Shown here in pieces: positions 3,501 through 51,500 of a stretch of DNA of 64,000 nucleotides. The stretch is from Capitulum mitella (lineage: Eukaryota > Arthropoda > Thecostraca > Pollicipedomorpha > Pollicipedidae). Below the pieces are notes generated by a model that saw nothing but the letters and a program-made list of their open reading frames with translations, made no database searches and was not told the DNA's origin. The number at the start of each line of letters is the position of its first letter. The first letter of the stretch is position 1. The stretch lies in the NCBI GenBank assembly GCA_030062745.1, contig CP099842.1, forward strand, positions 10,299,838-10,363,837, read 5' to 3'. The position numbers were made by a program, and so were the translations under genes.

Positions 3501-6500
3501 GACGGCGCCTGCCTGCGTTAGCTGCATCTGGCCTCTATCGGTGTCTCGTCCAGACAGCGCCGGCCGCTTCTTGCGGTCGGCCGCAAAACCGGCCGCGCCG
3601 GGTCCCGCTGGGAACGATGCCGACACGGCGCTGGGAACGCCGCCGCCGTCAGCGCCAATAGGTCGCGAGAGCGTCACCTCGGCGGCCGGGCGACGTGGCG
3701 GACCGGACGACCGTCTCTCCGACCCTGCCGCAGGGTCACAGTCGGAGTGTAAGGCAGGGCGAACACAGTCGTCGGGCGTCCCCTCCCTCCCTCCCGACTG
3801 CGTGCACTGCCGCAGTGAGGCGGCGCCGGCCGGATCCCCGGGCCGCCTCCCGTCCCCGCCGCCCGCAGGTGCGGTAATCCAGACGGTCGGCGGCCGGCCG
3901 CCCCGCCGCCCTCCGCCGCCGGCCGGCTGAGCCGCCGCCGGCCGGTTCCGGGGAGCCGCGGCCGGCGGCGGCGGCCGGCCGGACGGCGGCGGCCGCCAGT
4001 GGTGACCGGGCGGCCACGGCGGCGGCGGCGGCCGCAGGTCAGTCCGGCGGCGGTCGGCAGCGCGGCGGCCCTCAGGTGAGGTGGCGGTGCCATCCGCCCG
4101 GCTCCGAGCCCGCCGCCCCGGAGAAAGGAGGATAATTGGGCGGCCCGGGCCGCTTGCGAAATCCCCGTCCGCACCGGCTGCCGGAAGCGGCCCAGGGTCA
4201 TTGTGGCCACGCTTCGTGAGTTTCTCCGCGATCAAGAACGTCGGAATCATGTTCATGACGTGCTTGCCCCCGCTCCTGTGGGCAGTCGGGCCCGTGTGAG
4301 AGTGTCCGGCCGTCCGTCTCTCGCCGTTGGACGCCCTCTCTCGGCGGAGCCCCCGGCGGAGGCGCCAGAAGCTGCCGCGCTCCCACAGCGCCCGCCGTTC
4401 GAAGCCCTTCTCACGCAGCGTGAGCGCAACGGACGGCCGTGAGTCACTGCGGCTTCCTGGGTGAGTCACGTCGCACGAGAGTCCTGCGCTGCTTGAGTAA
4501 GACGGCGCGCGGCCGCCGGCCGGCCGGCCGGGTTCAGTCGCGGCAGTGTCGGCGCCTCTGCAGCAGTGTCGTGTGCAGACTGCAGAACGGCTCAGAGGCG
4601 GTGCCGAGGTGAGTGGACCGCGGACGGTCAGCTGCACGGACTGGGGGGGGGGGGGCGGATGCGGTGTCGAGGATGACCAAGACGCCGTGTCCGGCGCGGG
4701 CGGGCGTGACCTTGGCGGCTGGGGGTGCGGTGTGGAGAATGGGAGCGCCGCGGAAGGCATGCCACGTGTTGGGAGGATTGAGCACGGCAGGCCGCGCCCG
4801 AAGCTCGTTTTGGCGGTCTCCCACGAGCTGGGCTTAGTGGATCGGGGGTCAGGCGTATCAGATCAGGGAAACTAGGCGGCTGCTGTACAGGACCGCGAAC
4901 TCAGGTGTGGAGCCTGAGGGGATGGTGGACAGGTCCGTGACCTCAGGTGTGGAGACTGAGAAACTGGAGCACAGGTCCTTGACCTGAGGTGTGGAGACTG
5001 AGAGACTGGTACACAGGTCCGCGGCCTCAGGCGTGGAAACTGAGGGGCTGCTGTGCAGGTCCGTGACCTCAGGTGCGGAGAATGAGGGGCTGGTGCACAG
5101 GTCCGTGACCTCAGGTGCGGAGGCGGAGGGGCTGGTGCACAGGTCCGTGACCTCGGGTGCGGAGGCCGGGGGGGGGGCGGCATTGTGCACAGGCCCGTAA
5201 CCTTAGATGATGAATGATGAGGGGATAAGGCACGGGTTTCGGGTCCCAGTTGTTGGAGTCTTGGACCTCAATCGTAGATATGCGTTTCGGGGAAAGAAAT
5301 CCTTTAGATGTTAAGTAGTTCTGTCCCAGGCGATTAACCAAGTGAAGCTGGAAAATCCTTTTCGTGCCGTGCAATTACACGGCCCGGCCGCTTGGACTGG
5401 ATCCGCATGCAGATGACTTTTCTGGGACTCGAAGCCAGACTAAGCCAACAGGGTCTGAGCCCCGCCTGGGGCCCTGTTGTCTGGGTCCATCAGGCCATGG
5501 CGGCGGCCCTGGCCAGACTCTCAGCTGGTCCGGTTGTTGTGGTGCGGGCGAAGGTCGGAGTAATCCAGTAAGGCGAGAGCTTTGGTTACAAGCAGCGGCG
5601 AAAATCTTCAGTCACGGATACATTCAGCCGGTTGCTCAGCAAGCATGGAGAAGCTGCCGTGGGGAACTGCAAACTTTGGGCCTCCATGGCTAGCTATCAT
5701 ATTCAGGTGCCCTCAGTGGAGGTACGCCAGGTATACACGACAGTACCGTACAAAAGGTCGACTGCGCACACTGGTCCTCCTGCCTCGGCTGACTCTCCCT
5801 GGATGATGCTCTAATGATATCTACCCGGCGCTGTGACCAGTACACAGGCGGCCTAATGGGTCCCAGTATCTAATCGTTAGAGGATCCGGACACACCGTCT
5901 GTCACACTCCGCGTGAGTTTATTACAATCAAGCGTTTGCGGAGAGACTTAATGGTATTCCGTGACCGACACGCTGTGAACAAACCTGGTGGGTGAGCTAC
6001 CTCTTGCGAACCTTTTGGCAAGTGAGTACAGGTAGTGTTAGTTTCCTTTCTGGTGAGTCACCAGCAGCGCGTTTCACGGCTGACAGTATCATAGGTGATC
6101 TCGAAAACGTGCGTTGTTAGTTCTTCTCCTTATTGGGGGATGGATGATTCACTGATCTTCGGAACTTGGGACATTCTTCGAAATAGCGCTGTTTTTTTTC
6201 GGGAATGATAGCTCATTATCTCCAGACTTCCACTGCACTGGTTCCAGTGTCGGTTCCAGCTGTCATATTCAGATTCGGTTCTCCTTCCCTCGACAACCTC
6301 CATTCCGACCCTCCCCATTCCTGGCGACGAATGATTTCCACGAAGCTGGAAGGACACTGACCCTCCCTCTCCCCGGCAGGACGGACACTGACCCTCCCTC
6401 TGCCCGGCAGGACGCAGCGGCTGCAGCAGCGGACGGACCGGCCCAGCGTCGGCTCGCTGGACGGCAGCGAGGCCGGGTTCGGCCGGCGGCCCGACTTCAA

Positions 6501-9500
6501 CACCAGCCAGGAATCGGTGTGCCGCCGCGACCCTCGCCAGCCCCTCTACGCCAACGCGCCGCCCAAAGCCGCGCCGGCTGACCGGCAGCCGCGAGGCGAG
6601 CAGTTCGCCGGAGCCGACCGACCGGCTGGGCGAGATGGCCGCCGGCGCCCAGGTGCCGAGCCGGCGCGCTCTGGCCGAGCGGCGCACTCCCGACGCGTAC
6701 GCCGCCGCGCCGCCGCACGGCCGCGCCGACTACGAGGACGTGTACGGGGCCAGTGTGGGCAGCGGCTCCTCGCGGGGCCGTGGCCGGCCCGGCGAGCCGC
6801 GCGCGCACGCCCGCGAGTCGTACGCTTCCAGCGCCGGCCGCAGCACGCGCATGTCGGGCGAACTGTGCACGCCGCCGCCGGCGGGCGCCGCGCCGCGCGG
6901 CTACGGCTACCTGCAGACGCCGGAGAGCGTGCCGCACGGCAGCCTGGCACCGGCGGCGGCGCTGCCGCGGCCGCACTCGGCCGACTTCCTCGAGTGGGAG
7001 CGGCGCGGCGGGCCGCAGAGCGCGCGCTTCTTCTCGCCGCCGGCGGGCGCGCCGCGGCCCAAGTCGAGCCTGGCGCGCTACCAGCCGCCGGCGCACGACT
7101 ACTGGTCCGAGGAGGGCTACGCCAACAAGATGCGCCAGGCGGCGTACAGCGGCGGCGTGGTGCTGCCGCCGCCCGACGCGCCGCCGCCGGCGTCGCCGAT
7201 GACGCCCACGGCGCCGATGACGCCGGTCGGCGCCGCCACGCTGCCCGGCCACGGCGCGGCGCCGGCGCCGGCGCCACCGGCCACCCACTCGCTGGGCCGG
7301 GACCTGGAGCGAGTGCCGCGCGGCAGCGGCTTCATGCGCTCGGCCAGCGCCCGGTTCGCGCGGCAGAAGGCGCGAGAGCTGGACATGATGAACACCTCGC
7401 TGCCCGACGACCCGAACGACTGCCGCGACGGCACCCAGGAAGAAGATCCAGCAGGTATGTGCTTACCGACTTCGCCCGCCGCTGGTGAATCATGACGTAA
7501 ATGGCGGGAGATCTGGGAAGACGTTTGGTCGGGCTTTGATGGATATAGCGACAGATCCGTGTAGCAGTCAGCAGTCGCCATCACAGCTGATGGCTGATCG
7601 TCACGTTTTCTGTCAGCTTCAGGGTTACGTTTTTTTCGGAAGAAATCACAAATGATATCCATAAGTATGTTCACACAGTCAGGGTTGGTTTCCTCTCATG
7701 CCTCAGAGAAGCACCGTGACAATGACAAACGTCCTGCAGCCATGGATGTTTTTAGTGTGACGCATACGCCGGTAATTCCAGAGCAAGCCTACCCCGAAAT
7801 CCAAATTTAAAGTCAGTGAAAAATTAAGATTTTCCAGTCGACTAGTCACGGCTTACACGGCATTAGACAAATGTGAAAAAGTTGTCGGTAGTGGCCGGAA
7901 CTCACTGTGCACTGAATCACACCAAGACCGCCTGCTGAGAAGATTTCACAGACTGTGATGATTGATGACAATGATTCCACAAAAAATGCGGGCCTAAGGG
8001 AGGGGCCTGCCCCCCCCCCCGTTGGTTGCGCCGATGGTTATGCATGGATTCCCAAAAACACGGATGCGGCGCCCATGATGGCAAAGCCGAAGCGTACATC
8101 CTCCAGTGTCGGATGCGAGCAGCTAGGTATCAACTGCTTGGAACTGCTGTTAGGTATCAACTGCTTGGAACTGCTGTTAGGTATCCACTGCTTGGAACTG
8201 CTGTTAGGTATCAACTGCTTGGAACTGCTGTTAGGTATCCACTGCTTGGAACTGCTGTTAGGTATCAGCTGCTTGGAACTACTGTTAGGTATCAACTGCT
8301 TGGAACTGCTGTTAGGTATCAGCTGCTTGGAACAACTGCTTCCCCCATTTGGAAAAGACGTCATTGTCGATTTAGAAGGGTACATTGCAGGGGCGTCGAG
8401 TTCTGTAACTGATTGAGGGGGGGGGGCGAGCCGAGAGCCCGACAACCCACCCTCCCCCCAAATATGGGTTTCTCGATGGATTCCGCCCACTTTATTTCGG
8501 AGATTTATGAGTTATTTTTGTACTATTTATCAAATTAAAAATTGTCTTTATCCCCATGTTTTCAGGTACATATAGAGATAGAAGATCGGATGATAGGTAT
8601 ATCGCTTTAGACTTTATTCTGTACTATTTGCCTGTCTCTTATTTATTTCGGCCGTTCTTTTCGTTATTATTACTCATTTTCCCTTTAAAACCGGCAGAAA
8701 ACATGGGGTGGGCCCAAGCCAACTTTGAGTGGGCCACACCCCTGATACACTGGATGCCGAGACATCATACGCACGGGACGTCCTAGTCCCTCCCCGCCGC
8801 GGCCGACCCTCTGGAAAGTCCGACGCGCCCGCCGGTGCCGATTGTGCAGCACGCCTTCATTAGTATGCGTGCGGCGTTCCCGAGGCGGATCACGCCGCAA
8901 TGCGCCATGTACGGCACCGGGACGCCTCATTGCAGGAGTTTTTGTGGTGGCCGATTTTATGAAGCCGTAATTATGAACGTCGTGATGTTGGTCGCCACGT
9001 GACGAAACAGGTGGCGGCCAGGTCCAGTTCATCGAAAGCGTTTTGCTGTCACCGCACGTCAAGTTTCTGAGACCCCCACCGCCCACAGTCCACCAATTCG
9101 TGCACGCCTTGCAAGCATGAGCCACACCTTGTTTCTGCCGCGTATGTTGGCGGCTCCCTCGTGGCAAGAGATCCGGCTGTGCCAGGTACCATCTCGGTTC
9201 TTTGGCACGTCACCGGTGCCGGCGGCACGGATGTAACTTTATACCTCTCTGTGGGTGCACGTGCCCCCACAAGCCAGATTCGTACGCCCACAAACATGTT
9301 CTGCAACTCACAAAAAAAACATCCAAACGGCCTAATATGTGCAAAGAAAGGAGATGCGCATATATGTGTTGATATCCATAGCATGACGAAGAAAAACCGC
9401 GCACGTAAATGGACCCATAGACGCTCCCACAGGAGCGGTGAAACTCTGTGGAGATGAGGGAGGGGCAAACGCGATTTTTATCTCGTTTCTTTCCATCCAA

Positions 9501-15500: not shown

Positions 15501-18500
15501 CAATAAGAAACGGTAACGACGAAACGATATTCGATACCGATAGCGACAAAAGCCTGTGCATTCTGAGCCGGCTGTCTAAGAGGCTCTGGACATGCCTCTG
15601 AAGTCGTCATTTACAAAAATTAGAATCGTCCCCACGATAATCGGCCAGCCGAAACGGTTTCGTGTTTCGGCCCCGATTTGGGTTCTGGCGACCCATTGCA
15701 CGGTTGTAAATATCGCTCGGTAGTGTGCTTTGCAGCGTAATCAGTCCTGTGCGGGGAAAGAACGGTCATGACGTTCCTTCCGCATTTATTTCTAATGCCT
15801 TGTGATCTGCTTAACACGTAGCTTTCTTTAGAAGACTTTTCTCTGCATGATATTATTTGCGCCGCCCGGCAACGCTGCTTTGGAGGTGCGCTGGACGACG
15901 CCCAAGCGTCCCAGGAGGCGGGGCGGTAAGCAGCAATCCTATTCCTTTCTCTCTCTTTAACTCACCATGTAACTAGTACGGCGCTCGCTTTCTACAATCG
16001 CCTCTGCCCGCTTCCACTAACACCGCGCCCGGAAGACGAGAGAAGCGACCGCGGCCCTCTCCTGCTCGACTAACCTGGTGGACGGTGCGGACGGAAGACT
16101 GAAGTTTCCCCTCTACTCGACAGATGGCAGGGACTCGGAATTCCTGCCGCCGCCGGCGCAAGACTATGTGAACCTGTCGTACCGGCTGGGCGACGCCGAC
16201 CCGTGGGCGGCGGCCGGGAGCCGGGAAGAGCCGTGCCCTCAGGCGCCGCGAGCCGGCCCCGGCCCCGGCCTGTCCTCGCCGCATCACGGCGCGTGGCTCG
16301 AGAGGCCGGAGCCGCATAAGCCCGACAACCGCGCGACGGCCAGTGGCCAGGAGGCCGGCCACGGCCACCCAGGCCGGCTCAAGACCGAGATGGACTTCCG
16401 CAACTTCGACAAGTCGGCCGGCACGCTGCCCGGCGACGGCTTTCGACAGGCGCACGACCAGTACCACTCGCAGAAGGACAAGTACCACCACGAGCTGCAC
16501 AACTACGACCACTTCTACCCGACCAAGGAGAAGGTGGCGCCGCCGCGGCGCGGGCTGACCGGCGAGCCGACGCCGCCGTCGCCCGTCGGCCTCCCGCCAC
16601 TGCTCAGCGCCCGCGAGCTGGAGGAGGCGCCGCTGGCGGGTGAGCTGCGCGCGCCGGAGTGCGCCACGCTCGGCAAACACTCGGACAGCGGCTACGACAC
16701 GCTGCAGGCGGACGTCACCGGCGACGAGGCACCGGCGCGGGCGCAGGGCGGCCGGCGCGCCGCCGCCGCCGAGCCGAAGCCGGCTCTGCTGGTCGGCTGG
16801 CCGACGACGGACTGGCACGGAGACGACGCCGACAGGATCGACGAGTCCAGGCTGGTGAAGGAGTTCAGCTACGAGTACGTCAAGCCGGACTCGACGACCG
16901 AGCCGCCCGCCGTCAAAATCCCGCCCAAGGTGATGCCAAAGAGAACGGCGGCGCAGCCGAGCCAGGACAGCGCGAGCAGACAGAACGATTCGCCTCCCAA
17001 GAGTCTGGTCCAGGAGCGGATAAAGGCGTTCAAGAGTCGGCTGGACGTCTCGAGCGTCGGCGAGGAACAGCTGGAGAAGCCTCTGCGGCTGGTGAAGACT
17101 CAGGCCGAGGTGGCCGAAGCTCAGGTGTCCCAGCTGAAAATGCCGCCGGTCGACTTCAGGGAAACGGAGGCCATCACGGTGACGGCGTCCGAAGCGCAGG
17201 TGACAACCATCCGGAGTCTGAACGCCTCGCTGAGGTCGCGCGCCGGTTCGACCAGGGACTCGCGGTCGCCGGAGGAGGCCGGCCAGCCGGACCGCTCCCT
17301 GACGTACTCGGACGGCAGCCCGGCCAACAGCCTGGACCTCAGGGATATACGCAGCCCGCAGGACATCATCGACTCGCGCAAGTCGCGCTGCAACCTTAGG
17401 AAATTTGCGCTGGAGGAGGACGTTTCCGCCCCAGAAGCGGCCAGCGCCCACGACGAGGCGGCCAGTTCGTCCGTGGAGGACCTGCTGTCGAGGTTCGAGA
17501 GCGGGCGCCGGTCGCGGAGTGAGCGCGCGCCCGGCGCGGTCGAGCCGGCGCACGGCGCCAGACGCGACGGCAGCGACTCGGACGGCGCGGTCGAGGTGAC
17601 GTCACGCTCGGAGCCGGCGCTGAGCGCGGCCGGCGTGCTGGTGGACCTGCGCCGCTCGGCCGACCGCCTCGGCCCGACCGAGCCGCCGCCGGCCGCCGCT
17701 GGCGCCTCCGACTTTGCCGTGACGCGGTTCGGGCCGGACGAGAGCGTGGCGGCGGCGGCGACTCCGGTTCCGGCTCCGGCTCCGGCTCCGGCTCCGGCCC
17801 CGTCGCCCCGCAGGGCAGCCAAGCAGGAGCCGCGCGCGCCGCCCGCCGTGCCTCCCAAGCCGCAGCGGCCAAGCCCGGCCGCTGTCGCGGCGGCGACTCC
17901 AATCTACGCCAACCAGCCGCCGGGCGGCGCGTTCGCGCTCAACACGTCCAGTGAGGACCAGTACCTGCCGCTGAGCCCGCCGCGGAAGCTGGCCGAGCCG
18001 CCCGGCTCCGAGTCGGCCATGCACTCACGCCAGTCGTCAGCGAGCCTGCCGCCGCCGCCGAGCGCGCCGCCGCCGCCGCCGCCGCCGCCGCTGCCGGCGC
18101 GCGGACCACAGGCCGGCCGGTCGGAGGAGAGCGCCTACATGGAGATGAACGCCAACGTGCTGAACCTCAGCTTCGAGGCGTCGCAGAACATGTTCAAGAA
18201 GCTGTCGAACCACGGCGTGATGCGGGACGCGACCAAGTACTCGGAAATCCGCGAGGCCGGCCACCAGTACGAGTACATGTTCCCCAGCGGCGGGCCCGGG
18301 AGAACCCGTCTACATGGAGGTCCCGTCGGAGAACGGCAACGCTGCCGGCGCGGCCAGGGCGCCGCCGGCCGAAACCAAGATCGACAACAAGCGCAAGGCC
18401 GAGGCCAAGAAGCTGAAGGGCGAGAAGCGCAAGTCGGACAAGAAGTCGGGCTCGGCGGACAGCTCGGCCTCGGACGCCGACGACGAGGGCTCCAAGGAGA

Positions 18501-21500
18501 TGGACCGGCCGCGCAGCCGGCGGCTGAGCCTGTCCGACACGTTCCGCCCGGCCTCCTACTACCTGCAGATGCACGACCGGCGCGAGCAGGCCGACTCGTC
18601 CGACAGCGACCTGGTCTCGCCGCCGCCGATCCCCATGTCGCCGCCGCCGATGGACGAGCTGCAGCCGGGCGCCGGCGCCAAGTTCAACTACGAGCCGGCC
18701 GAGCCGGAGGCGCCGCCCTACCTGCTCAACGCGCTGCTGGCGGCGCACTCGGCGCAGATGACGTCGGTCGGCGGCCAGCAGGTGGTGACGGAGGCGGCCG
18801 ACCGGCGCGCGTCCCTCTCCAGCCAGGGCTCGTCGCAGGACAGCCTGGCGCGGCTGGCGGCCGACATCGTCTCCCGCCGCTCGCAGGACTCGGGCTCCCT
18901 CGACAGCGTGCCGATCAAGCAGGAGCGGACGCCATCTGTCGATAGCAACCGCATTGACAAGTACAAGCGGCGCCCGGTGGTGGACGAGATGGCGCTGATG
19001 GCGGTGTCCGAGGACCCGCTGGTGCTGCGCTCAGAGGACCGGTACCCGGGCGCCGTGCAGCTGGCGACGCCGCCTCGCTCACTGCTCTCCGAGGATAAGT
19101 ACCCGATCCAGGACAGCAACGGCTACATGACCATGATGTCGCCGCTGGCGGCGCACAAGTGCGCGCCGCCGGCGCCGCCCAAGCCGTGCCAGGCGCACCA
19201 GACGTACGAAAACTTGCCCACGCCGCGCTCCAGGAAGCCGTCCGAGGTCTCGATCCACACGCTCATGTCGGTGGCGTCCAGCGACAGCCAGCTCCCGACG
19301 CCGAAGCGGGAGAGCTTCAGCTCGCTGACCAGCATCGAGCTGACGCCGGTCAAAAGCCCCGAGTTCCAGTCGGACTTCGCGCGCACCTTCCGCGACGAAG
19401 CGGCCCTGGAGCGGCCTCCGGAGCGGCCGCCGCCGCCGCCCCCGCCGCCGCCGCCCGACAGCCGACCGCCGCCGCCGCCGCCTCCGCTGGAGGCGACGAG
19501 CGGGCCGCCGGCGCCGCGCGAGACGGGCGCGCGGCCGCGCATGCCGCGCACGCAGCTGTCGCCGCGCGAGCCGGTCGGCGCCGCGGCCGCGCTCGTCGAC
19601 CACCGGCGCGGCAGCTCCAACATCTCGGTCAACTCGGCCACTTCGACGGGCAGCGACGGGCGCGCGCCGTACTACTACTCGGACCTAGCGGCGGCGGCGG
19701 CGCTGCAGGAGCGGCCGGCGCGGCCGCGGCCGCAGCTCAACAACCAGCGCGAGCTGGACGCCAGCAAGCGGGCCGACATCGGCCGTAAAGTGAACCAGAT
19801 CGGCACGCCCGAGGACCGGCTGGCGCGCGTCGGCCGCATCGCGGCGCAGCTGCGCAGCTCGGTCGAGTACCTGGAGGCGCAGAAGTGGTCCGACCTGGAC
19901 GAGCGCAACGTGTACGACTCGGACACGCTGAAGAAGGCGAGGCGGCGCTCGCACACGCCCGACGCGGCCGACCAGTCGGTGCGCAACATCTTCCCGGACG
20001 GGCTGCGCGTCAAGAACGACGAGGCGACCGGCCCGGTGTTGTCGCACCACCGGCGCACGCGCTCGCTGGAGGGCCTGCTCGAGGAGACGCCGCGCTCGCG
20101 GGGCGCGCCGCCGCGGAGCGGCGACTCGCCGGCGGACGGCGCCGGCGCCGCCGACCGGGCGGCGCAGCGCCGCTCTCGCACACCCGACTTCCTGTCGTCG
20201 GGCGCGAGCGAGTTCGAGCGCGACACGCGGCCGCGCGCGCACACGCCCGACGTGCTGCAGTCGCGGCCGCGGGACGAGCCCCGGCCGTACCGACTCGAGG
20301 ACCGGCCGCCGATGCCGCTGCCGCGCTCCGAGCTGGCGCGCTCGGCCGGCGAGCCGCCGCCGTACCGGGCGCCGCCGCCGGCCGGGACAGCGTCGGGCCG
20401 GAGCCCGGGGCCAGGCCCGGCTGCGGACGGCGGCGGCGGCTGGGACGGGGACCTGGCGGGCCGCGCCAGCCTCCGTCAGGCGCAGTCGATGGAGAGCCTG
20501 GGCCCGGCCGAGCGGCGGACGGCGCTGCCTCCGGCGGAGGCGGCCGACCCTCGCCGCGTGGCGCGCGGCGCCCTCTACGTCAACGAGCCGATGCGACAGC
20601 GCTACCAGGAGCGCTCCGGCTGCCGGTCCAGCGATGACGTGCGCTACGACCGACTGCTGGAGCGCTCCGAGACGCTGGAGCGCGCCAAGCACGGCCGCAC
20701 GTACCTGGAACAGTACGACTGGGACGAGCGGCACGAACAGTTCCGACCGAGCCCGCAGCTGCCGGAGCGGCCCGGCGTCCAGCCCGACAGCCAGCGGCCT
20801 TTTTTAGGCGATGGCCTCCCTCCGTCTTTCGAGATTGACCGCGAGGAGCTCCGCCAGTGGGACCTGCTGTCCTCGGCGCCTCTGGTTGACGAACGACGAC
20901 GAGGGAGGCCGAAATCCGCCCCCGACCTCTCCCGGACGGCGGACGGCTGGGAGCCGCCGGACTTCAGTTTCGACTCCTCCCCGGCCTCCACCGCTGCCTT
21001 CTCCTGCTCTGACCCCTGGCCGGCCCCCGGCGCCGACCCTCCGCCCGCGGAGCCCCCCACCGCTGCCGCGCCCGAGTCCTTCCGTTCGGACCCCGACCCC
21101 GGCTCGGTATCGGCCTCTTCACCCGCCCTGCCTGCTGCTGCTGCCGCCGCCGCCGCCGCCGCCACCACGGCCGCCGCTGCCGCGGACGCGGAAGACTCCA
21201 CCGCGCCACCAGAGACGGCACCGCCAGACAGCGCTGCAGGTCAGTCAGTCAGTGAGTGCAGGGCTCTGGCGGCTCTCCGGGCTGTCAGTTCGCCGCAGGA
21301 GCCGCGGCCGCGGCCCGTGACGCGCCATTGAGCGGCGCCGCCGGGCCGTGTGGCCGGCCGGCGGCCGCCGCCGGCGCCGGCGATTGTCGTCCGCGGCCTG
21401 ACGACATGAATATTCAGCTGCGCCGCTCCGGCGGCGGCGGGATCGATGCTCCCGATGTGACAGTGCTCTTATTATGGGCCGCTTCTCTCCTTCGGCGCCG

Positions 21501-30500: not shown

Positions 30501-33500
30501 CCAGCCTATCTGCCGGCCGCCCGCCGCCCCACAGCGCCCACGCCCACTATATTTCCATCTAGATTGTGCCCCACTCAGGAAAATATTGACACGCCGTCCG
30601 AGAGCGGCGCGCGCCGTTTAGCGGTCGGCGGTTACTAAACGCGCCGTTTATGCCCGTAATAGCTGAATTAATGCCCCTAGCGAGATGCTGGCGGGAGAGC
30701 GCGTGGGCAGCGTCCCACTAAGACGCGCCCCCGTGGGAGCGTGGGCAGGCGGCGGCGTGCGTCGGCCGGTCCGGTCCCGTTACCCTGCTGCCGGCTGACA
30801 GCGACGGCCAGCGCTGGCCGCGGCGCCCGCTCTGCACCCGGCCCCGAGAGCCGGGCCGAGCCGGGCCGGCGACCCGCCGCCGCGCCGTCCTCGGCGGAAG
30901 GTCGCGCCGCCGTCGGAAGCGGCCGGCAGCTCTCCGCCGCCGAGCGGGCGGCTTTTCGCGCAAATCCCGGATCAGCCCGGGGCCGTCCGGCCGCTGGAGT
31001 CGAGATCGTCCGGTCCGCTCCGTCCCGCGCCTGGAGCAGGCGCGCTCGCCGCGTACCCCGTGTCCAGACGGCGTCCGCGCCCGCCCGGACGGTGCTGTCT
31101 GGTCTGTACGTGTGCTCTCGGTGCTCTCTGTCCCGCGCGGCCCGTGTTCGGACGTCTCGGAGCGGCGTTCGCCGGCGGCCGGCGGCCGGACGCCTCTCGC
31201 CGTGCGGCGCGCCCGCGCCGAGCCGGCCGACCGGTTGTGCCGGCTGCAGACGGACCGACTATAACGTGCACGGAACGTTGACCGAAGCGGCCGGCCGGCG
31301 GCGGCGCGGCCGTCTGCGGGCCTCCCGCGGCGGCGGACGTGCTCTATTGAGCGTCCGCCGGCCGCGCAGCGTACGGGCGCCGACCGTCGCCGCGGACGGA
31401 CCCCTGCGGCCCGAGCCCGGGCCGGCCGCCGCTCTGCCCGGAGAAATCCCGCACTCTGTCGGGCGTCGGTGTGGACGGGGAGACCCGGCTCTGGGTCAGA
31501 CGTCGCGGTGGACGGACTGCCTCCCGGGCCTGGTCCATTGTTATCCTTGTCCACTGTGGTCCAGACGCCACGGTGGACAAGTGACCTGACTGGGTCAAGC
31601 GTCACTGCGGACGGATCGACCTGATTCCGAATCAGATACCACCGCTCGTCGCTGGTGCAAGAAGAGCAGGGACGAGCTGCGATGCAGAGGTCATGGATTT
31701 GCATCTCGTTGTTGCTGCCCGTGCATCTCTTCCTCCAGTTTCGTTCTGTGGAGAGCCGTTTCGGACTGGTGTGAAATAGCTGCCTTCATGTGAGCTAAAG
31801 GTCGTGCCCAGAATATCGCTCATGATTTGTTGAAAGGATCTCAAGATGGTCTGCCCCTCAGATTGGCGTCGCTGAGAGCACCATAAAGTTCACTTTTTGA
31901 AGAAGCCAGTAGACGTTTCGCCTTTACTCGTTCGTAAAAATTCTGGGCGGAGACTGTTTTGAAGGCGAGCTCTCGGCCCTGTTGAATTATTCCGGGCTGA
32001 AGCTGCAAGTTTTCGGGTTCGAGAACTAGTTCCTTTGAAAACAAACTAGGTACTTTCACCTCGTTAGGGGATGACCTTTTCCGGCTTCGTGAAATAAATT
32101 TCCGGACCGTGGATGCTCGTGTGTCAGAGAGGATATTGAAATTAGGCCCCTAAATTAAGTTTGTATCGCATAGCAGCCGTTGAATCTCATCACCGCCGGT
32201 CTTTTATTACCTGGAATAACCTGTATTAATCAGGTGGGACAGGTGGGTGGAATATGGGTCATCGGCGCACGAATAAACCTCGCCGAACCCCGGGGGCGGG
32301 CTAACAATATCCCTCCCTTTCCAGATGCGGCACCATCGGTGCGCATCGAGCTGGTGCCTCCGGCGTCTCAGCGCCTGCCTCACAATGGCGTCTCCCAGCT
32401 GTCGAACGGCTACGTCCACCACCCGGGCCCTGCGGCGGTGCACCGCGCCAAGCTGTCGCCGGCGCCGGAGCTGTACAGGAGCGGCGCGGCGCCGGCCGGG
32501 CCAGGCCCGCCGGCCGCCCTGACGCTGCCCCGGCAGCAGGGCGGCGCGGCGCCGGGCCGCCCACCGGCCGGCGCCGCCACCCTGCCGTCGCAGTACCGCA
32601 GCCGCGGCCAGGGCCACGACAGCGGGCGGCAGCCGCCTCCGCCTCCGCCGCCGCCGCCACCACCGCCGCCTCCGCCTCCGCCGCCGCCTCCGCCTCCGCC
32701 ACCGCCGCCGCACCATCTGCAGCAGCAGCAACATTTGGTGAGTGTTCCCCGATAACCGCTTCTCCGGTCAGCACCCTTCTAAGAAGAGGCAGCGGTGGTG
32801 AAAATCAAGCTGGCATGATGCCCGCTGCCTGTAGGCTTACCACGATACTCCCTGTCTTCCCGGGTAGGGGATTAGGGTAATGCGGCCCGTGGAAGGAGTT
32901 TTCCATTGCTAGGTGATGGCATCCTCAGTTGCAGTGGAACTATTCTTGTTCTTGTTTTTAGCCAGTTCGTCTTGAATGTACGTCTGGGAGAAGCCTTGAA
33001 ATGGCAAAGACAGGAGGGGCTGGCGTGCAACCTGTTACCTATTGCCGTTGTGACTGCTTTCAAAGTCACTTCGATACCTGTTTTCGACAGTGCTTTAAAT
33101 GATTCAGTAACTTCCCAGTGGCCCGAAGCACACATTTTGCCGCCCGAATATATCATAAACGTGGATCGGATTCCACCAGTACACCAGCCCTTGTTTTCCT
33201 GCGTCAGTACGAGACCGTTGTTGTTCCGATCCCTTCATGTCCCTGAGGGCGTCATTTCTGCCATGGTGCAGCAGGAGCGGTGGAATTTCTGTAGAGATGG
33301 GGGTGGGCAGATGCGATTGCTATCTCGTTTCTTCCCATGCAGCGTCATAGGGTTGATGTTAAAGGTTGCCCAAAGTGGGGGGGGGGGGCAGCTGTCCCTT
33401 CCCCCCGCTTCCAGCGCCCCCAGTGGTGCAGTTTTCACTAGCACGATGTACACCGGTCGCTGACCGGTGTACACCGGTTCTACCATCCACCGCCGCTGGA

Positions 33501-36500
33501 GCTCAACTAATCTCCCCCCCTGCACGACCCCCTTCACCCTTCCCGGCGGCCATGTAGCAGCGCGGAGCGCCATACAGCCCTCTGCAACACAATACGCCGG
33601 CCGGTTTTTCGCGTGCCGGCGGTAGACGGGGCGGAAATGACACCGGTGAACACGCCGGCACACAGGGCCCCGGACCGCCCGGTGCATAGCTCACACCCCT
33701 GCCCACCGACAGCATACGATCCGAACCAATCGCCAGAGATCGGAACCAACGATCTGAACCGGCAGAAATCAGCACGGAAGGTCTGAAGCTGACTGAGATT
33801 AGTACTGATGTTCTCAGCTGACTGAGACCTTCTGATGGTCTGAGCTGACTGAAATCCCGACTTATGGTCCGAGTCTATTGAGGCCAGCACGAATGGTTTC
33901 AGCTGACTGAGATCAGAAATGATGGTTAGGGCAGACCAAGATGAGCGCTGATGGTCTCAGACGATTGAGATCAGCAATAATGGTCTCAGCTGACTGAAAC
34001 TGGCAATGTTGGTCTGAGACTGGGATCAGGAGTGATGGTCTTAGCTGTCTGAGAGCAGCACTGATGGCTTCAGTCGATTGAGATCAGCCCTGATGGCCTC
34101 AGTTGATTGAGATCAGCACTCATGGTCTGAGCAGAACCACCATCACTGGAATCAAAGCTGGTGGTCTCATGCAACTGAAGCCAGCACTGATGGTCTCGGC
34201 TGACTGAGGTCAGCACTGACAGTCTCAGCTGATTGACGTCAGCATTCATGGTCTGTACTGGCTGTGTCAGCATTGACCGTTGCCGCGGAGACCAACGCCG
34301 CCGGACTGCCTGCCGACCGTCTCTCGGCCGCCGCCGCGGTCCGTCCAGTCACATTCACGACTCACGACTGCCGGCCGCCGTCTCACGGCGGGCCGCGGGC
34401 GGGCCGTTTTTGTGGTGCGTGAGGCGCCGCCTGCGTGAGGCGGCCGCCGCGTCTGCAGGCTGGCGGGGCGCTAACGGTACCGCGTGGTCACCGTGCCGCC
34501 ACCGGCCGGCCGCAAAAACTGCGCCCGCCCGGCCTCCTCCGGCCGCGGCGGCGGCGGACGCGCTCAACCGCATCGATCGACGCGCGTCGGCGACTGCAGG
34601 TCCTCTGTCTCCCAGCGCCGGACCTCGGCGGTCGCAGGTGCTCTTGTCTTCCGAAGTCTCCCGGGCCTGTGCCTCTGCGGGCGCCGACCCTCTGTCTCCC
34701 GGGCCTGGGTCTGAGTGATCGCAGACCCTCTGTCTCCCGGGCCTGGGTCTGAGTGATCGCAGGTTTTCTGTCTCCCGGGCCTGGGTCTCGGCGGGCGATG
34801 CTGGTCGTCCGGCCGCTCCGCAGGGAGGCGGTAGCAGCCGGTCGCCGGCGCGGCCACGCCGCTTTTGCCGCTACGCCATGAATTGCCGCCAGCGCCGTGA
34901 CGACGCCGCTGGGGCGACCGCAGATCGGACAGCGTCCTGCCCCCGGGCGGCTGTAAGGGACGCCTGCCGATCGGCCGCGCCGGCCATGTCTGGCCGTGTC
35001 TGGGCCGCGATTGTCGCGCGAAGAACCGCCGCCCGCCGGCCGCGGCGGGCCGGCCGCTCCGCCCGCTCCACCGAGTCCAGTCGGCGCCCGGCCGGCAGAG
35101 GTCACGGCCCGCCGGGGCGGGAGTGCCGCCGAACCGGCCGCGGCCGCCGCCGAGCCGGCCGGTCCAGTCCGGCGGCCGGCTGCAGCGGCCGGCGCGCGCC
35201 ACGCCGCGCCGCCGACCTCGGCGCGCCGTGTCGGCCGTAACGGGCCGGCCGGCGCAGCGCTGCAGAGCGGCCGCCGCTGCAGCGCCCACCGCCGGCTAAT
35301 TGTCCGAGCGGCGCGGACGAGCTCGCCGGCGCCAATCTCGTGGCCCGGCGCGGCCGGCGGCCGCACCACCGGTCGGCGGGATGCACTGAGACTGTCCCTT
35401 CTGAGAGCACTGTACTGTACTGTTCCGTACTGTAGTGTACTGTACTGCACTGTACTTTACTCTACTGTACTGTGCACTGCGGTACTGAAAATTACGTAGG
35501 CGAACGTCACAAACGCCGACGAACGGGCGGGGGGAGGGGAGCAGGGTGATCTCCGTTCGTGGGCCGTAATGTCTGGCGTATCCCATTCCCCACGTGGCAG
35601 GAAAGCGGCTGTCGATCCATCGCAGTATGGGTGGGTCACGTGGTCAGTTTATTGCAGAGTCAGGCGATCTCGGGGCGGGGTCATCACAGAGTCGGTCATC
35701 GCAGCGTCAGTCTTCACGGAGCGAAATCGTCCGAGTCCGGTGAACCGCAGAGGCGGACGTGAGTCGCAAGGTCGCCTTCTCACAGAGTGGGAGCCGAGTC
35801 ACAGATGTGTGGCCTTGCGCGGAAGTTCTCTCCGCTCATCCTTCACGCCCTCTGGTAAATCACGCCGGGCCGCCCGCGGCGTGTGTCCGCCACGCTGACG
35901 AATTGGCCCACGGACCGTGGTGGTACACAGCCCGGCGCTGACAGTCGAGCACTGAAGGCCGCTCCAGTCTGACAGCGTCACTGTTCAACTGAGGGCTGCT
36001 CCAGTCTGAGAGCGTCACCCCTTAGCTGAGGGCCGCTCCAGTCTGAGAGCGTCACCCCTCAGCTGAGGACCGCTCCAGTCTGACAGCGTCACCCCTCAGC
36101 TGAGGGCCGCTCCAGTCTGACAGCGTCACTGTTCAGCTGAGGGCTGCTCCAGTCTGACAGCGTCGCCCCTCAGCTGAGGGCCGCTCCAGTCTGACAGCGT
36201 CACTGTTCAGCTGAGGGCTGCTCCAGTCTGACAGCGTCACTCCTCAACTGAGGGCTGCTCCAGTCTGACAGCGTCACCCCTCAGCTGAGGGCTGCTCCAG
36301 TCTGACAGCGTCACTGTTCAACTGAGGGCTGCTCCAGTCTGACAGCGTCACTCCTCAACTGAGGGTTGCTCCAGTCTGACAGCGTCACTCCTCAGCTGAG
36401 GGTTGCTCCAGTCTGACAGCGTCACTCCTCAACTGAGGGTTGCTCCAGTCTGACAGCGTCACTCCTCAGCTGAGGGCTGCTCCAGTCTGACAGCGTCACT

Positions 36501-45500: not shown

Positions 45501-48500
45501 ACGCGCTCGCCCTCCAGTCTGTCGCCATGATGAGGCATCGACCGCGCGCCGCCGAGCCGTGGGAGCTGCGATCGCTGGTCCGGTGACTCGATCACGTCCG
45601 CAGCGGCCTCATTAGGCGAGCGGCCGGGAACCGGCGACCACATGATCCGTCTCATAACCCCGGCACTGACCGATCGCACCGCCGGTCGGAGCCCCGTAAC
45701 CAGGAGGTGGCGCCTCACCGCGCCGGCCCGGGCGGCGCTGGGGCCGGCGTCTCACCGCGGACCGGCCGCTGGTCGCGCGTGCTGGCCTCCCGGCGGCCTC
45801 CGGCTAATCCGTCATCGTCGACAATGGCCGAGCCGTGGTGACCGCCTGCCGTGCTGCGGCGGCCGACGGCTGACGTCGGCTGACGTCGCGCGTGCCTCGG
45901 CTGGCCCGGGCCGAGCTGACCAGGGTCTGCCGGCCTGGGTCCGTCCGGACATAGGGTCTGCCGGCCTGGGTCCGTTCTTACCTTGGCACTGGCCCTCCTG
46001 GCATGAAGTCTGTTAGCCTAAGTTCGTCTGGACCGGCTGTGCTGACTGGAATTCGGGTATAAAGTGCACACATTGGAAGACATGCCTCATGCTGTTCGGA
46101 AAAAAATCCTCTGCCCAGTCGCTCCGCTTATGTAAGATGACGTGTGGATGTTGACCGTTGTGTCTTACTATCGTTGCAGTGAAGCCGTTGTGTTACGTTA
46201 GTAGAAACGAGCGTGGTTTATGTTGCGTCCTTGTTTTGCGCGTGAGCCGTGGCGCTTGGTTTCCGTCGGCGGCGCTCGTTCGGTGTCACCTTGAGTCTGG
46301 CCCGAGGGTCGGCGAGGTCGGCGGCCGGCCGGCGGCGCTGATCGCCGCCTTGGTATTGATTACTGGGCTGGATATTTGCCGTGTTGCCCTGCAACCGCCG
46401 GCTCGGCCGTGGGACCCATGGGAGCGGCAGCCGGGCTCGTGTGGGGCCCGGATACCTCAGCCCTACTGGCGTTAATGGAGCATTATCCGTCATATGAAGA
46501 CACCTGCTGTTTTGATGTGTCCCCTAGGTCGCCGGTCACCCTTCACGTAGTTAACGGAACGGTTGGCCGTATTTGTGTAAACCCCAGAAAAGCTCGGTCG
46601 CATGTGCGTCATCCCAGACTTGCAGCGAGCTGCACTGAGACCTCCTAATGCCGGTTGTTTGGTCCTGAATGTCGTGTTGTTTATTGTCGCTGACTGCAAT
46701 GGCTTGTGCGAGTTTGTCGCGGAAATGATATCGAGGGAAGTGCAAATTTTAACAAATGGACATCCAGCGTCCTCGCGTAACGGCCATTGCTGCTGCCATT
46801 TTCTGTGTCCGCTAACTGGCTGCATCGCCCGACGGCTCCCTGAACGACCCACTAAATCGCCTGCGGCGGCCCGGGCCGGGCGAGCTGACCCCTGACCTTT
46901 GGCTGGTGTTGTCAGGCGCCGCAGCGGACAGCAGCCGAGGCCGGCTTCATCTCTGACCTGAAGGCCGGCGACCTCCTCGGCCGCAGTAACGAGGAGCTGG
47001 TGCTGCTGCTGATCCAGCTGCGGCGGCAGAGCGCGGCCATCGCCGCCGCCCAGGACCGCACTCGACAGCAGCTGGCGGCCGCGGTCAGTCACGTGCGCGG
47101 CCCGGCCGGCGCGGCCCAGCCGGCGCGGCGCGGATCGGATCGGGTCGGGTCGGGTCGAGTCGGGCCGGCTCGGGTCGGGTGGGAGCGGGTCGGGAGCGCT
47201 TGTAGGTGGATTGGTGTCGATTGAGACTAAGAAGTAAACAGTACACTTAATGACGACGTGGGTAATTGGCATGCAAAAGCGCGTCCTTCTTTCGCTCACA
47301 CTTGAATGCCACGGACGCACGTGGTGACAGACACACGTGCTTATTGGCAGACCTACGCTAGTCAACTCGCGTGAGAACCGTTGCATATTAAAACACCGTC
47401 GTCCACGTAAAGCACGTCCAAAGCTGATCACTTATGGATTATGTAGGTACTAATTTCCACCATCCGTTATTTTCGTGGAGCACTACTACTAGCAAACCTG
47501 GCAGTGCCGGCCTCCACTGAGTCGTGACGAGGTCGCCTTTGTGGGCCCAAAGAATGGGCGAAACGTATGGACCGTCATCCAATGTCTGTACGTCCGGCAT
47601 TACAATGCGTCCGACGACACGCAATTTAGCGGTAATGACCACGCCTCGTGTGGCCGTGGGAACACTCGATTGAAACTGAGTCGAGGAAATTGATCCCGCT
47701 CATGCGAACGAAAACGTTTAGCGCCTTCCTCCGATGGCCGCGCAATTTAAGACGGACAATGGCTCATTATCCAATCTTTGCGCCTAATTCTGCGGTGGAT
47801 GGAGGGAAGTGTCAGTGACTCCAGGGACGGACAGCCCAGCAAACACAAACCGGTCCAGGGCGGTGGCGACCTGTGGGCCCGTACTACACCGGCTCCCTAA
47901 CCCTCCTTCGCTGTCCGATATGTATGTACAGGGATGCTAACATGTTCCCCACCCGTGTTTCCTGCCGTTATTGTCCCAACCCGGAACGGCCGTTTCTGAT
48001 GGAGCCGTGGACCGAAACGAACCATTCTGGTGACGGTTGTTGCTCTCCCCGTCACCGATGGGGCTCGTGCCTCTGCTCTGTACCGGTTTGGGCTTTCCGC
48101 TGGGTTTTTTAATGCGGTGATTGGCTTCGCTTGCTGAGATTAGAAAATCGGGGTTGACTTTGATTTCCGGGCGCTGGGGCCAATGCGGGCTTGGTTTGGA
48201 AAAGCCGTTGTTTCTGGCGTCTCCACATCAGTAAAAATGTTCTCCGGGACAACGAATCCTCCGAAATGATTAGAACGTTTGCGCAAAAAATGTTTCTGCG
48301 GCGCCCATTTTGTTTTGTTTTGTTCCGACATCAAGAAACGAATTTCAAGTCCTGGTGTAGTCCGGCGACCTCCCCTGATCGTATAAGCGGCCTCAGATCG
48401 TTCTCTGAGTGCTGAGACCTGTTCAAACACTTTCATCCCTGCCTAGACCGCGCGAGCCAGGCCGCGTCACGAAGCCAGCACCGGAGGCAGACCGATAGAA

Positions 48501-51500
48501 GGATCGCAGTTTTACAGGCCGCCACGGTCTTGTGTGGCGCCTCTGACAGTCGCCAGCGGTGCAGCTGACTAGCTTTCCAGCGGCAGGTGCATTACTGAAG
48601 GTCTCGCGTCTCGTCATAGGGAATGAGCCTGCATTGCGCGTTCCAGCGCATGCGTACGATGGGCGAAAAGGAGCGATTTTTTTTCTGCTCCAGTGCCTCG
48701 TCGGGCATTCGGGTTAATCGTGAAAGAGGGAAACGTCTGTGCAACTGCAACGTGATTTGGGTTATGGTCGTTGGCACTGGTCCGGACTCGTGACGGTAGC
48801 GCGGAGCGGGTGACGCCGGACGCGGTTCGTCACGCCGGCCCGGCGTCGGAATGCGACGGACGCCGCCGGCCCGGCCGCCGTACGAGGCACGCGGTATCGA
48901 TCGGCAGTACGGTTGGCACCGTTTGTCGTGTGCACACAACTTGATGTCCTCACACAATGGAGCGGCGTGTGTGCTTGTTGGCGTTCCAGTGCGGCGGCAC
49001 TGTAGCCTGCCCAGGCGCCCCTTCATTGTAGAGTGGTGATAGATTATTTCGACGTCGGGGGAAGCGGACGAAGAGTGATGGTAAGCAGGGTGGGTTACAT
49101 GACGCCTGTACATGTAACGCTCGAACGTTTGAGGAGCGCACCCGATTGGCACGCGGCTGGATGAGTTACTGTGAACGCGGCGGTAGTTTGATGGCAGTGC
49201 CGTGGGACGGCATCGTCCCGATTCACGGGCCTCTACCGGCGCAGGCTGTTTAATAACGACGTACTGAAGCAGGCACGTAACGTTCTGAAATGAATTGGGG
49301 ATGCCAGCCCGCGCATTATCTTAGGGACTCTGAGATCATTGTGGGTGCCCGCCCCGAATGGTCGCATGTTAAGTTCACGTGTCTTTGTGGGTGCGCAGCC
49401 AATACTGGGGCGCCGAAGCACCCACAACGGTTCAGAAAATCGCACTTTTGCTGTCTCGGCACGACAACGTCCCTGACGAACAACGGACCGAGTAGACGTA
49501 ATGAGTACGCATGGTGAACGCCACAGATCGCCTTCGCTACTTTGGCCCACTGCGCAGGCCCGGATCTGCGACACCGACGCCGTTGACGTACCGCCGCGGT
49601 ACCGGTGACGTCACAGTCCTGCCATTGTCGGTTCCGGCCGACAGGCCGGGGGACCGCGCCGGCCGGGGCCATTGTGACTGCCGCCGGCCGTGATTGCGGC
49701 AACAGCGCGGTGACCTCGACCGTCGGCCGGCGGCAGCGGCAGCGCCCGCCCGAGGAATGCAGTGTCCGGCCGGGCCTGTCACGGCACGGCACGGTGCGGC
49801 CCGGTGTTCTCTGCCGCTGGCCCCTCAGTGCGGAGCCGGCCCATGGCTCGACTGTCGGTCCTGGCGTCCGAGGCCACAGCCCCCGAACCGCCGGCCACAG
49901 ACAGACGGTGACGGCTCACTGTCGGCCCACAGACAGGCCCTGATCTGACGCACTGTCGGTCAACAGACGGGCCCTGACTTGCCCTCTGACGGGCGGCCCA
50001 CAGATGGCCCCTGATCTGACGCACTGTCGGTCCACAGACGGGCCCTGACTTGCCCTCTGACTGGCGGCCCACAGATGGTCCCTGACCCGACAGAGACTGT
50101 CGGCCCACAGACGGCCCCTGACCTGCCCCCTGACTGTCGGCCCACAGACGGCCCCTGACCTGACAAAGGCTGTCGGTCAACAGACGGGCCCTGACCTGCC
50201 CCCTGACTGTCGGCCCACAGACGGCCGCCCTGCAGCAGACGGAAGCGAGCCACAGGGACGCCGAGGGACGCCACCAGCAGGCGGAGCCACACCAGAGGGA
50301 CGCCGGACACCTGCACGTCGAGCGACTGCGCAGCCAGCTCAAGGAGCTCGACAAACAGGTGAGAACAGGCGCACAGCCGGCGGCCACGTTGTAAGCACGT
50401 ACCGGCTCGCACGGGCCGGCTTGGGGCTGACAAGTGGATCCTGAGACGGTCCGCCGATACGCTCATGGCCCGGATTACCAAAATGAGGCGCGTGTTGTTG
50501 ATAGTTTTTCGACGATCTGAAGTGTTTTTTGTTGTGCACGGTCTGCGATCTTAGCTCTCCAGTAAAATACAGGTGTATCATAACGTGCAGAAAGGAAAAC
50601 GCAGCCCTTAAGGGTATCCGTGAAGTTTTACTGGTTACTTACATGATGTTGGCTAGCGAACTTTTTGATGTATATACATAAGCAAGAAGTGTGTTTCACT
50701 GCCACCAGCGTATGGCTGCACGTTTCCTTTTCGCAATGGAAACGTCGTCTGCCAGGCAGCGAACGATCAGCGTTCGTTTTGTGAAAAGATTGCGAAGGAT
50801 TACGTCGCTCGTCGGATTTAATCTCCGGGCGGAAATTACTGGACAGTGGCCTCTTTTAGCTGAGTGTCGGACGTGGCACTTTCTGCAGAGTGGCTTTGAA
50901 GATTAGATGTTGGACGATTGTCTGTAAAAAGGCGCTGCTCCTGCGCATTAAAGGACGAATCTTGGGGAGAGGTATCGATTTCTCTGAGTTATGAAAACTC
51001 CGACAAAGTGGATGACGACATTAATAACCACTGTAAATCAGTATAGACTCTCAGCGTCACTTGGTTGCCACAAATGACTGGCTGATCGTTTAAAGCGATT
51101 GGATCTGTAGTTGCCAGTGGCCCATAAATCAAAGGAAATGAAATATCGTGGCTCATTGTCGGTCCCAGAACCCTAAGAAGTTGCTTTCTTTGGGAAGCCT
51201 AAAAAAGGCGTTCTGTTAGGATAAATCATTCTTCTTCCCCGAACCGAACTCATAAGGCATTCTGCTCGGATAAATCATGCTTCTTCCCCGAACCGAGCTC
51301 ATCCAATCCCATCAGGAAAGCGGTGCTGTTCGCCCGCTGCTGACCTCGGTCACGTCTGGCGGCCCGCTGACGTTCGCCTCTCTTTTCACCGGCAGCACGA
51401 GCTGACGCGGCCGCTCATCAGCCTGGTGGACAACATGCTGAAGCTGTCGTCGCTGTACGAAGCGCCGCCGGACGGGCCCAGCCTGCAGGAGCGGCGCCGC

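Follow-up and report, generated by a model that had tools for sequence, protein, structure and literature searches.

The window studied here covers 64 kb of contig C4 in the barnacle Capitulum mitella, whose 477-Mb genome, in 16 contigs, was the subject of all genome-wide searches below. A long gene runs along its + strand, on which all exons and motifs given below lie; it consists of a split PH domain, a 1-kb exon, a giant exon at 16124-21239, and smaller segments from 32 to 58.7 kb. We infer that all coding segments of the window belong to one transcript. Judging from the sequence of the PH domain, for which family membership is shown, this is a PLEKHA4/5/6/7-type (kramer-type) gene, and its giant exon contains more tyrosine motifs of the YxxM class, and of the YxxM and YxN classes combined, than expected by chance, an excess that is real but modest.

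PH domain and tyrosine motifs of the giant exon

The first part of the PH domain (MRGWLDKQGSERLRLWKTRWFVLAEFCLYYYK) is encoded at 394-589, an exon supported by a Pfam PH match, by the splice script, and by Protein Data Bank (PDB) matches to PLEKHA5, 7, 6, and 4. The remainder (DKLLGSITLPSYRVCPVSQEDRVHRKYSFRIEHANMRTYYFACETKEKMTEWMNAI), at about 2252-2470, was found by Pfam PH, PDB match, and codon score, but was missed by the splice script, which is crude, as it cannot cross a frame break and also proposed doubtful short exons. The best seven PDB sequences for the joined domain were PLEKHA5, 7, 6, and 4 (6e-37 to 1e-30), with PLEKHA5 at the top (6e-37) and PLEKHA4 at 1e-30, and the next family, interactor protein for cytohesin exchange factors 1, followed only at 9e-14. 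Because the domain matches the four PLEKHAs so far ahead of the next family, we assign the gene to the PLEKHA4/5/6/7 type. A PH-domain search of the genome gave 11 matches at E<=10, and only the window's own exons were better than E 0.006.

The giant exon encodes about 1,704 residues, including 38 tyrosines, and was recognized from open reading frames (ORFs) and from G+C content by codon position. Its two ends agree with splice signals, an acceptor at 16124 and a donor (CAG|GTCAGT) after 21239. P, A, S, and R are abundant in it and order-promoting residues scarce, so that it appears mostly disordered by composition, and neither half has a Pfam match. Codon scores are circular within the giant exon, which served to train the codon model; the G+C-by-position profile is not circular.

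Four YxxM motifs were located by motif scan, YMEM (18136-18147), YEYM (18268-18279), YLQM (18560-18571), and YMTM within DSNGYMTMMSP (19124-19135; also by genome pattern search), together with four YxN motifs, YVNL (16165-16176), YANQ (17905-17916), YENL (19205-19216), and YVNE (20576-20587). The initial annotation had named YMEM, YLQM, YMTM, YVNL, YENL, and YVNE, all of which are indeed in the exon; its list was correct as far as it went, but YEYM and YANQ had been overlooked. Other Yxx[I/L/V] sites of the exon include YDTL, YSEI, YMEV, and YLPL. The starts of YSEI (18238) and YEYM (18268) are ten residues from each other, a spacing (YSEI-x6-YEYM, 18238-18279) like that of an immunoreceptor tyrosine-based activation motif, just upstream of a break in the reading frame. 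When the stretch 18103-18300 (66 residues) was folded alone with no alignment, helices were predicted at residues 8-36 and 43-59 with a mean predicted local distance difference test score (pLDDT) of 74, to which we give no weight; the predicted helix would, if true, take in the YMEM site.

Motif counts were made on the 38 tyrosines in 1,703 residues (the exon string is one residue short at the frame break). In whole-exon shuffles (n=20,000), 0.56 YxxM were expected as against the 4 observed (p 0.0015), and 0.72 YxN as against 4 (p 0.004); the two classes together amounted to 8 vs 1.28 expected, a sum that none of the 20,000 shuffles reached, and Y[MLVIE]xM to 4 vs 0.12, likewise reached by none of 20,000. 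With shuffling limited to blocks of 100 or 50 residues, p for YxxM was 0.004 and 0.003, respectively, and the YxxM+YxN sum appeared in 0 of 5,000. Even in the strictest shuffle, confined to the neighborhoods of the tyrosines, p was 0.014 for YxxM, 0.025 for YxN, and 0.0009 for both. Reversed controls were not significantly raised (M..Y, 0 vs 0.55; N.Y, 2 vs 0.72, p 0.16), nor was Y...M (2 vs 0.55, p 0.11) or YxxP (3 vs 5.1). The Yxx[ILV] class reached 9 of 38 vs 4.6 expected (p 0.03). The SH2 domains of p85 and GRB2 prefer methionine at +1 and +3 and asparagine at +2, respectively, and M+1, M+3, and N+2 were the strongest three among the 228 residue-by-offset pairs around tyrosine.

The 13 other listed coding segments of the window gene also hold 38 tyrosines, with no YxxM and three YxN. 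As a background for the genome we used 52 other segments (5,940 residues, 90 tyrosines, one YxxM, six YxN) scoring >30 bits, some of which are perhaps not true coding sequence; they are not a random sample, and they exclude the window loci and the IRS, DOK, and FRS2 regions. The giant exon exceeds this background in YxxM (4/38 vs 1/90, p 0.027), the single background YxxM stemming from a locus that was retrieved through the GYMxM pattern. The annotation's claim of a docking cluster therefore holds modestly for YxxM, which beats both the shuffles and the genome background, and is weak for YxN, which beats the shuffles only.

Frame breaks, remaining exons, and the copy on contig C5

The giant exon is not a single open frame. 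Its coding signal lies in frame 1 (ORF 16021-18945) up to about 18300 and in frame 2 (ORF 18221-21331) from about 18302, and both the G+C-rich codon position and the per-codon score shift by one base there, which places a +1 frame break at 18296-18304, between FPSGGPG and EPVYMEV. YVNL, YANQ, YMEM, and YEYM lie upstream of the break, and YLQM, YMTM, YENL, and YVNE downstream. Because the motifs are split over two frames, a single protein can carry the whole cluster only if 18300 is the site of an assembly error, a variant, or a +1 shift. The initial annotation was right about the motifs, and its exon borders agree with splice signals, but it had described one exon with no mention of the break or of more than one open frame. 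Third-codon-position G+C is 0.84-1.0 in the blocks around the break, which sits at short G runs (GGCGGGCCCGGGAG). A second one-base switch of frame occurs in the exon at 6411-7454 (window 6541-6660, near 6600), again with coding bias on both sides. Since strong coding bias flanks the break and short G runs are present at the first junction, the frame breaks near 18300 and 6600 are likely to be single-base assembly errors or variants rather than decay. The best path of the splice script excises 17596-18568, the stretch holding YANQ, YMEM, and YEYM; an intron as the cause of the 18300 break is not favored, because codon score and motifs reach the break from both sides.

The exon at 6411-7454 is proline-/serine-rich, with two YAN sites, and was pieced together from codon-score segments in two frames, its frame break falling near 6600-6620. 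A further probable exon (32336-32728) has a long polyproline run at its end, followed by HHLQQQ, and contains PGRPP. Two tRNA calls by ARAGORN (30895-30992 and 35134-35214), in G+C-rich DNA and with no Rfam support, are probably false. The exons resembling coiled coils by eye and the C-terminal exons were placed by codon score. A probable exon rich in L/E/Q/R (SNEELVLLLIQLRRQSAAIAAAQDRTRQQL) is at 46934-47131 (codon score alone), the exon QHELTRPLISLVDNMLKLSSLYEAPPD at 51393-51626 (codon score and genome search), and a probable coiled-coil exon (RSLEEELQRVQGLIDKLSVKRQELSRQVAALT) at 54002-54298 (codon score, with the coiled coil seen by eye). The proline-rich coding segment at 54773-55876 (codon score) contains PGGPP, a motif of the PGXPP type reported to bind KLHL12 and to be present in PLEKHA4 and Dishevelled (PMC7333892). 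In proline-rich stretches such a motif may arise by chance; the X of PGRPP above is not small, and the giant exon has no PGXPP. A C-terminal exon (56917-57246; codon score and genome search) is followed by a probable last one ending KICIPERYVPELVSTA (58503-58727; codon score), and the C-terminus of the gene (IPERY) is, we presume, similar to that of the PLEKHAs. No WW domain was matched on C4, where short split exons could escape detection; all 34 genome matches at E<=1 were on other contigs.

Parts of the gene have a relative on contig C5. The C-terminal exon at 56917-57246 matches C5:26756245-26756556 with 51% identity over 102 residues (E 5e-21), and the exon at 51393-51626 matches in part C5:26748692-26748772 (74% over 27 residues, E 0.02); both matches were upheld on the C5 DNA, in the same order and on the same strand relation as in the window gene. 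They mark a second gene copy at C5:26748600-26756600, in which neither the PH domain nor the giant exon has been found so far, the PH-domain search giving no match at this copy. C5:26700000-26745899 was sampled at fourteen points of 400 bases, one per 3.5 kb (about one eighth of the stretch), and none of the samples resembled the giant exon in coding signal; the sample at 26731500 was G+C-rich with a weak coding signal. Either the giant exon is not shared by the C5 paralogue, or it lies beyond 26.70 Mb, is shorter, or has diverged past recognition. A whole-genome duplication has been reported for barnacles (PMC11331182) and could be the source of the C4/C5 pair.

Comparison with IRS and GAB proteins

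A PH domain followed by many YxxM and YxN sites had been taken as the layout of the IRS and GAB docking proteins and not of known PLEKHA members. We reject this classification on the PTB domain, the type of PH domain, and the GRB2-SH3 motif. A search for the PTB domain (PF02174) gave five matches in the genome, none of them in the window. The two on C10 were considered as the genome's IRS and rejected, as they belong to what we take to be a talin-like gene, and those on C6 and at C4:11.78 Mb are presumably DOK and FRS2. The fifth, at C2:15988732, is a weak match, its E value of 0.007 exceeding the Pfam cut-off. About 21 kb beyond it, eight YxxM form a cluster (C2:16009965-16020301, including YVNM, YMPM, YLTM, and YLQM), a count that leaves out two further Y..M in open frame (C2:16016179 and 16016311). 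Six of the eight fall in one 551-residue ORF with 12 tyrosines, so that YxxM is about five times denser there than in the giant exon (6/12 vs 4/38, p 0.0073). We infer that this PTB match and the cluster belong to one gene, and C2:15988732-16021224 is probably the animal's IRS gene.

The P...R..KP motif, by which GAB-type proteins are bound by the C-terminal SH3 domain of GRB2, does not occur in the giant exon; the window's three + frames contain it twice (13764 and 63355), in neither case in a listed coding segment. The annotation had also likened NGYMTMMSP to the GYMxMSP motif of IRS proteins. The two are similar, although GYMTMMSP is one residue longer than GYMxMSP, and a GYMxM(x)SP-like DNA pattern occurs at 17 places in the genome vs 12 for the reversed control, so that the likeness of this single motif is weak evidence. 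Among the 17 places, the one in the window falls in an open frame longer than any other, with 807 residues in its locus, followed by 332 and 206 residues, the other 14 being <=104. What survives of the earlier description is a PLEKHA-type PH protein with a non-random set of YxxM motifs. It may still work like a docking protein, with no membership of the IRS or GAB families.

Interpretation and known systems

Tyrosine signaling through the PLEKHA family is already known, because human PLEKHA5 and PLEKHA6 were reported to be tyrosine-phosphorylated downstream of Met (PMC7936979), loss of the phosphatase PTPRK was reported to raise PLEKHA6 phosphosites (total PLEKHA6 was not quantified), a PTPRK substrate trap to capture PLEKHA6 (PMC6440744), and a proximity list of Afadin to include GRB2, GAB1, and PTPN11 alongside PLEKHA5, 6, and 7 (PMC11810119). 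The assertion that such a motif layout is foreign to PLEKHAs is thus not borne out. No report of p85 binding or of YxxM motifs in PLEKHA4-7 or kramer was present among the matches listed, which is not proof of absence. According to Kourtidis et al., the PLEKHA4/5/6/7 subfamily is single in invertebrates, with Drosophila kramer near it in the PH domain (PMC8983885).

The explanation that we tentatively favor, while holding it somewhat short of an even chance, is that the window gene encodes a PLEKHA scaffold that is phosphorylated at the membrane or junction and recruits p85 as a side function. The protein would be an invertebrate PLEKHA4/5/6/7 scaffold with an N-terminal PH domain, a middle region that is very long and disordered, and the coiled-coil-like and C-terminal exons beyond it. 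The giant exon would serve as a flexible arm; provided that the frame break is an error, its four YxxM and four YxN are established. The PH domain and coiled coils of the protein would, like those of vertebrate PLEKHAs, anchor it at a cell junction or at the membrane, and the arm may be a substrate of receptor or junctional tyrosine kinases, in line with the reports on human PLEKHA5 and PLEKHA6. PI3-kinase p85 might then be recruited, through its SH2 domains, by some of the YxxM tyrosines; GRB2-type binding at YxN would be less certain. The outcome would be a local signaling side branch at a junction or polarity scaffold and no substitute for IRS, which is probably also in the genome. Two adjacent matches to the p85-type iSH2 were found in the genome, under the Pfam cut-off.

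Several results weigh against this explanation. The frame break at 18300 divides the motif set between two frames, no single residue-offset pair passes correction for 228 tests (best p 0.0023) with counts as small as these, and YxN is not enriched (4/38 vs 6/90 in other coding DNA of the genome, p 0.48). Neither half of the giant exon has a match at the C5 copy at E<=0.01, nor has the first half at E<=1. The second half gave three matches in a viral contig collection and the PH query 51 pattern matches in a prokaryote contig collection, of which none was confirmed, as expected in such collections. The iSH2 search also gave sub-cut-off matches in two of 14 prokaryote control genomes. Outside chordates, likeness to vertebrate PLEKHA4/5/6/7 was described as lying mostly in the PH domain, coiled-coil and C-terminal matches being sporadic (PMC8983885), so that the middle of the protein is not deeply conserved, and a paper on the fly and human PI3K interactome names neither kramer nor PLEKHA in its main text (PMC4738311). 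The giant exon is perhaps lineage-restricted or fast-evolving.

The explanations overlap in part, and the likelihoods that we give them are not exclusive. Nearly as likely as p85 recruitment is that the gene encodes an ordinary kramer/PLEKHA scaffold, working in membrane clusters, junctions, planar polarity, and KLHL12-Dishevelled control, whose motifs are accidental in a long, fast-evolving, disordered exon. The composition of the exon and its lack of a Pfam match, YxN at the coding background level, the C5 copy that retains the C-terminal exons and in which the giant exon was not found, the KLHL12-type PGGPP at 54773-55876, and the limited similarity outside chordates all fit this, but it does not account for the YxxM excess under global and local null models and against other coding sequence, nor for the three top-ranked positions being those read by the p85 and GRB2 SH2 domains. 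An unlikely, more ambitious version of the docking idea is that the lineage gained, in the giant disordered exon of one of two gene copies, a working p85/GRB2 docking arm, a convergent, PTB-less analogue of IRS bringing PI3-kinase to junctions. We consider it decidedly improbable that PI3-kinase is not the main partner and that the Yxx[I/L/V] sites and YSEI-x6-YEYM recruit SH2 domains of the SHP2/Src type or act in YxxPhi sorting; the Yxx[ILV] excess and the ten-residue distance between YSEI and YEYM speak for such readers, but this excess is weaker than that of YxxM, and the pair ends in M where I or L would be expected.

It is very unlikely that the 18300 break is real or spanned by an intron, in which case there would be no single protein with the whole cluster and the product would end in frame 1 (18945) or lose motifs: the assembled DNA itself shows the break, and the path of the splice script removes YANQ, YMEM, and YEYM, but strong coding bias runs up to 18300 and resumes directly in the other frame, and the short G runs together with the similar break near 6600 fit single-base errors or variants better. 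We find it scarcely credible that the gene is a true docking protein of the IRS/GAB family or replaces IRS in this animal. A PH domain with YxxM and YxN motifs, the IRS-like look of GYMTMMSP, and the longest open frame among the 17 places would agree with this, but they are opposed by the missing PTB match in the window, the probable IRS on C2, the PLEKHA-like PH domain, the absence of P...R..KP from the exon, and a pattern count of 17 vs 12 for the reversed control.

Were p85 recruitment through the YxxM sites to operate, a PLEKHA junction/polarity scaffold would recruit PI3-kinase directly, tying cell contacts to growth signaling without IRS, and p85 would be a candidate reader for the tyrosine phosphorylation reported in human PLEKHA5 and PLEKHA6. 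If the sites do not work, the gene is an example of how readily long disordered exons accumulate plausible SH2 motifs.

Among known systems, IRS/chico shares with the window gene an N-terminal PH domain, a disordered tail, and YxxM motifs, but the window gene has no PTB match, its PH domain is of the PLEKHA type, and it carries YxxM at 4 of 38 tyrosines vs 6 of 12 in the IRS-like ORF. GAB/Dos likewise combines a PH domain with a proline-rich tail bearing tyrosine motifs, whereas the giant exon has no P...R..KP and the window PH domain is closest to PLEKHA. Fly Dos is itself said to have no multiple YxxM (PMC4738311). Unlike the WW-PLEKHAs (PLEKHA5, 6, and 7), the window gene has no WW match on C4, and its single 5.1-kb exon with four YxxM, a count made in the window gene alone, may be a further difference. 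It shares with PLEKHA4/5/6/7 the PH domain by sequence, a long, proline-rich, disordered middle, and perhaps, judged by eye, coiled-coil-like and C-terminal exons.

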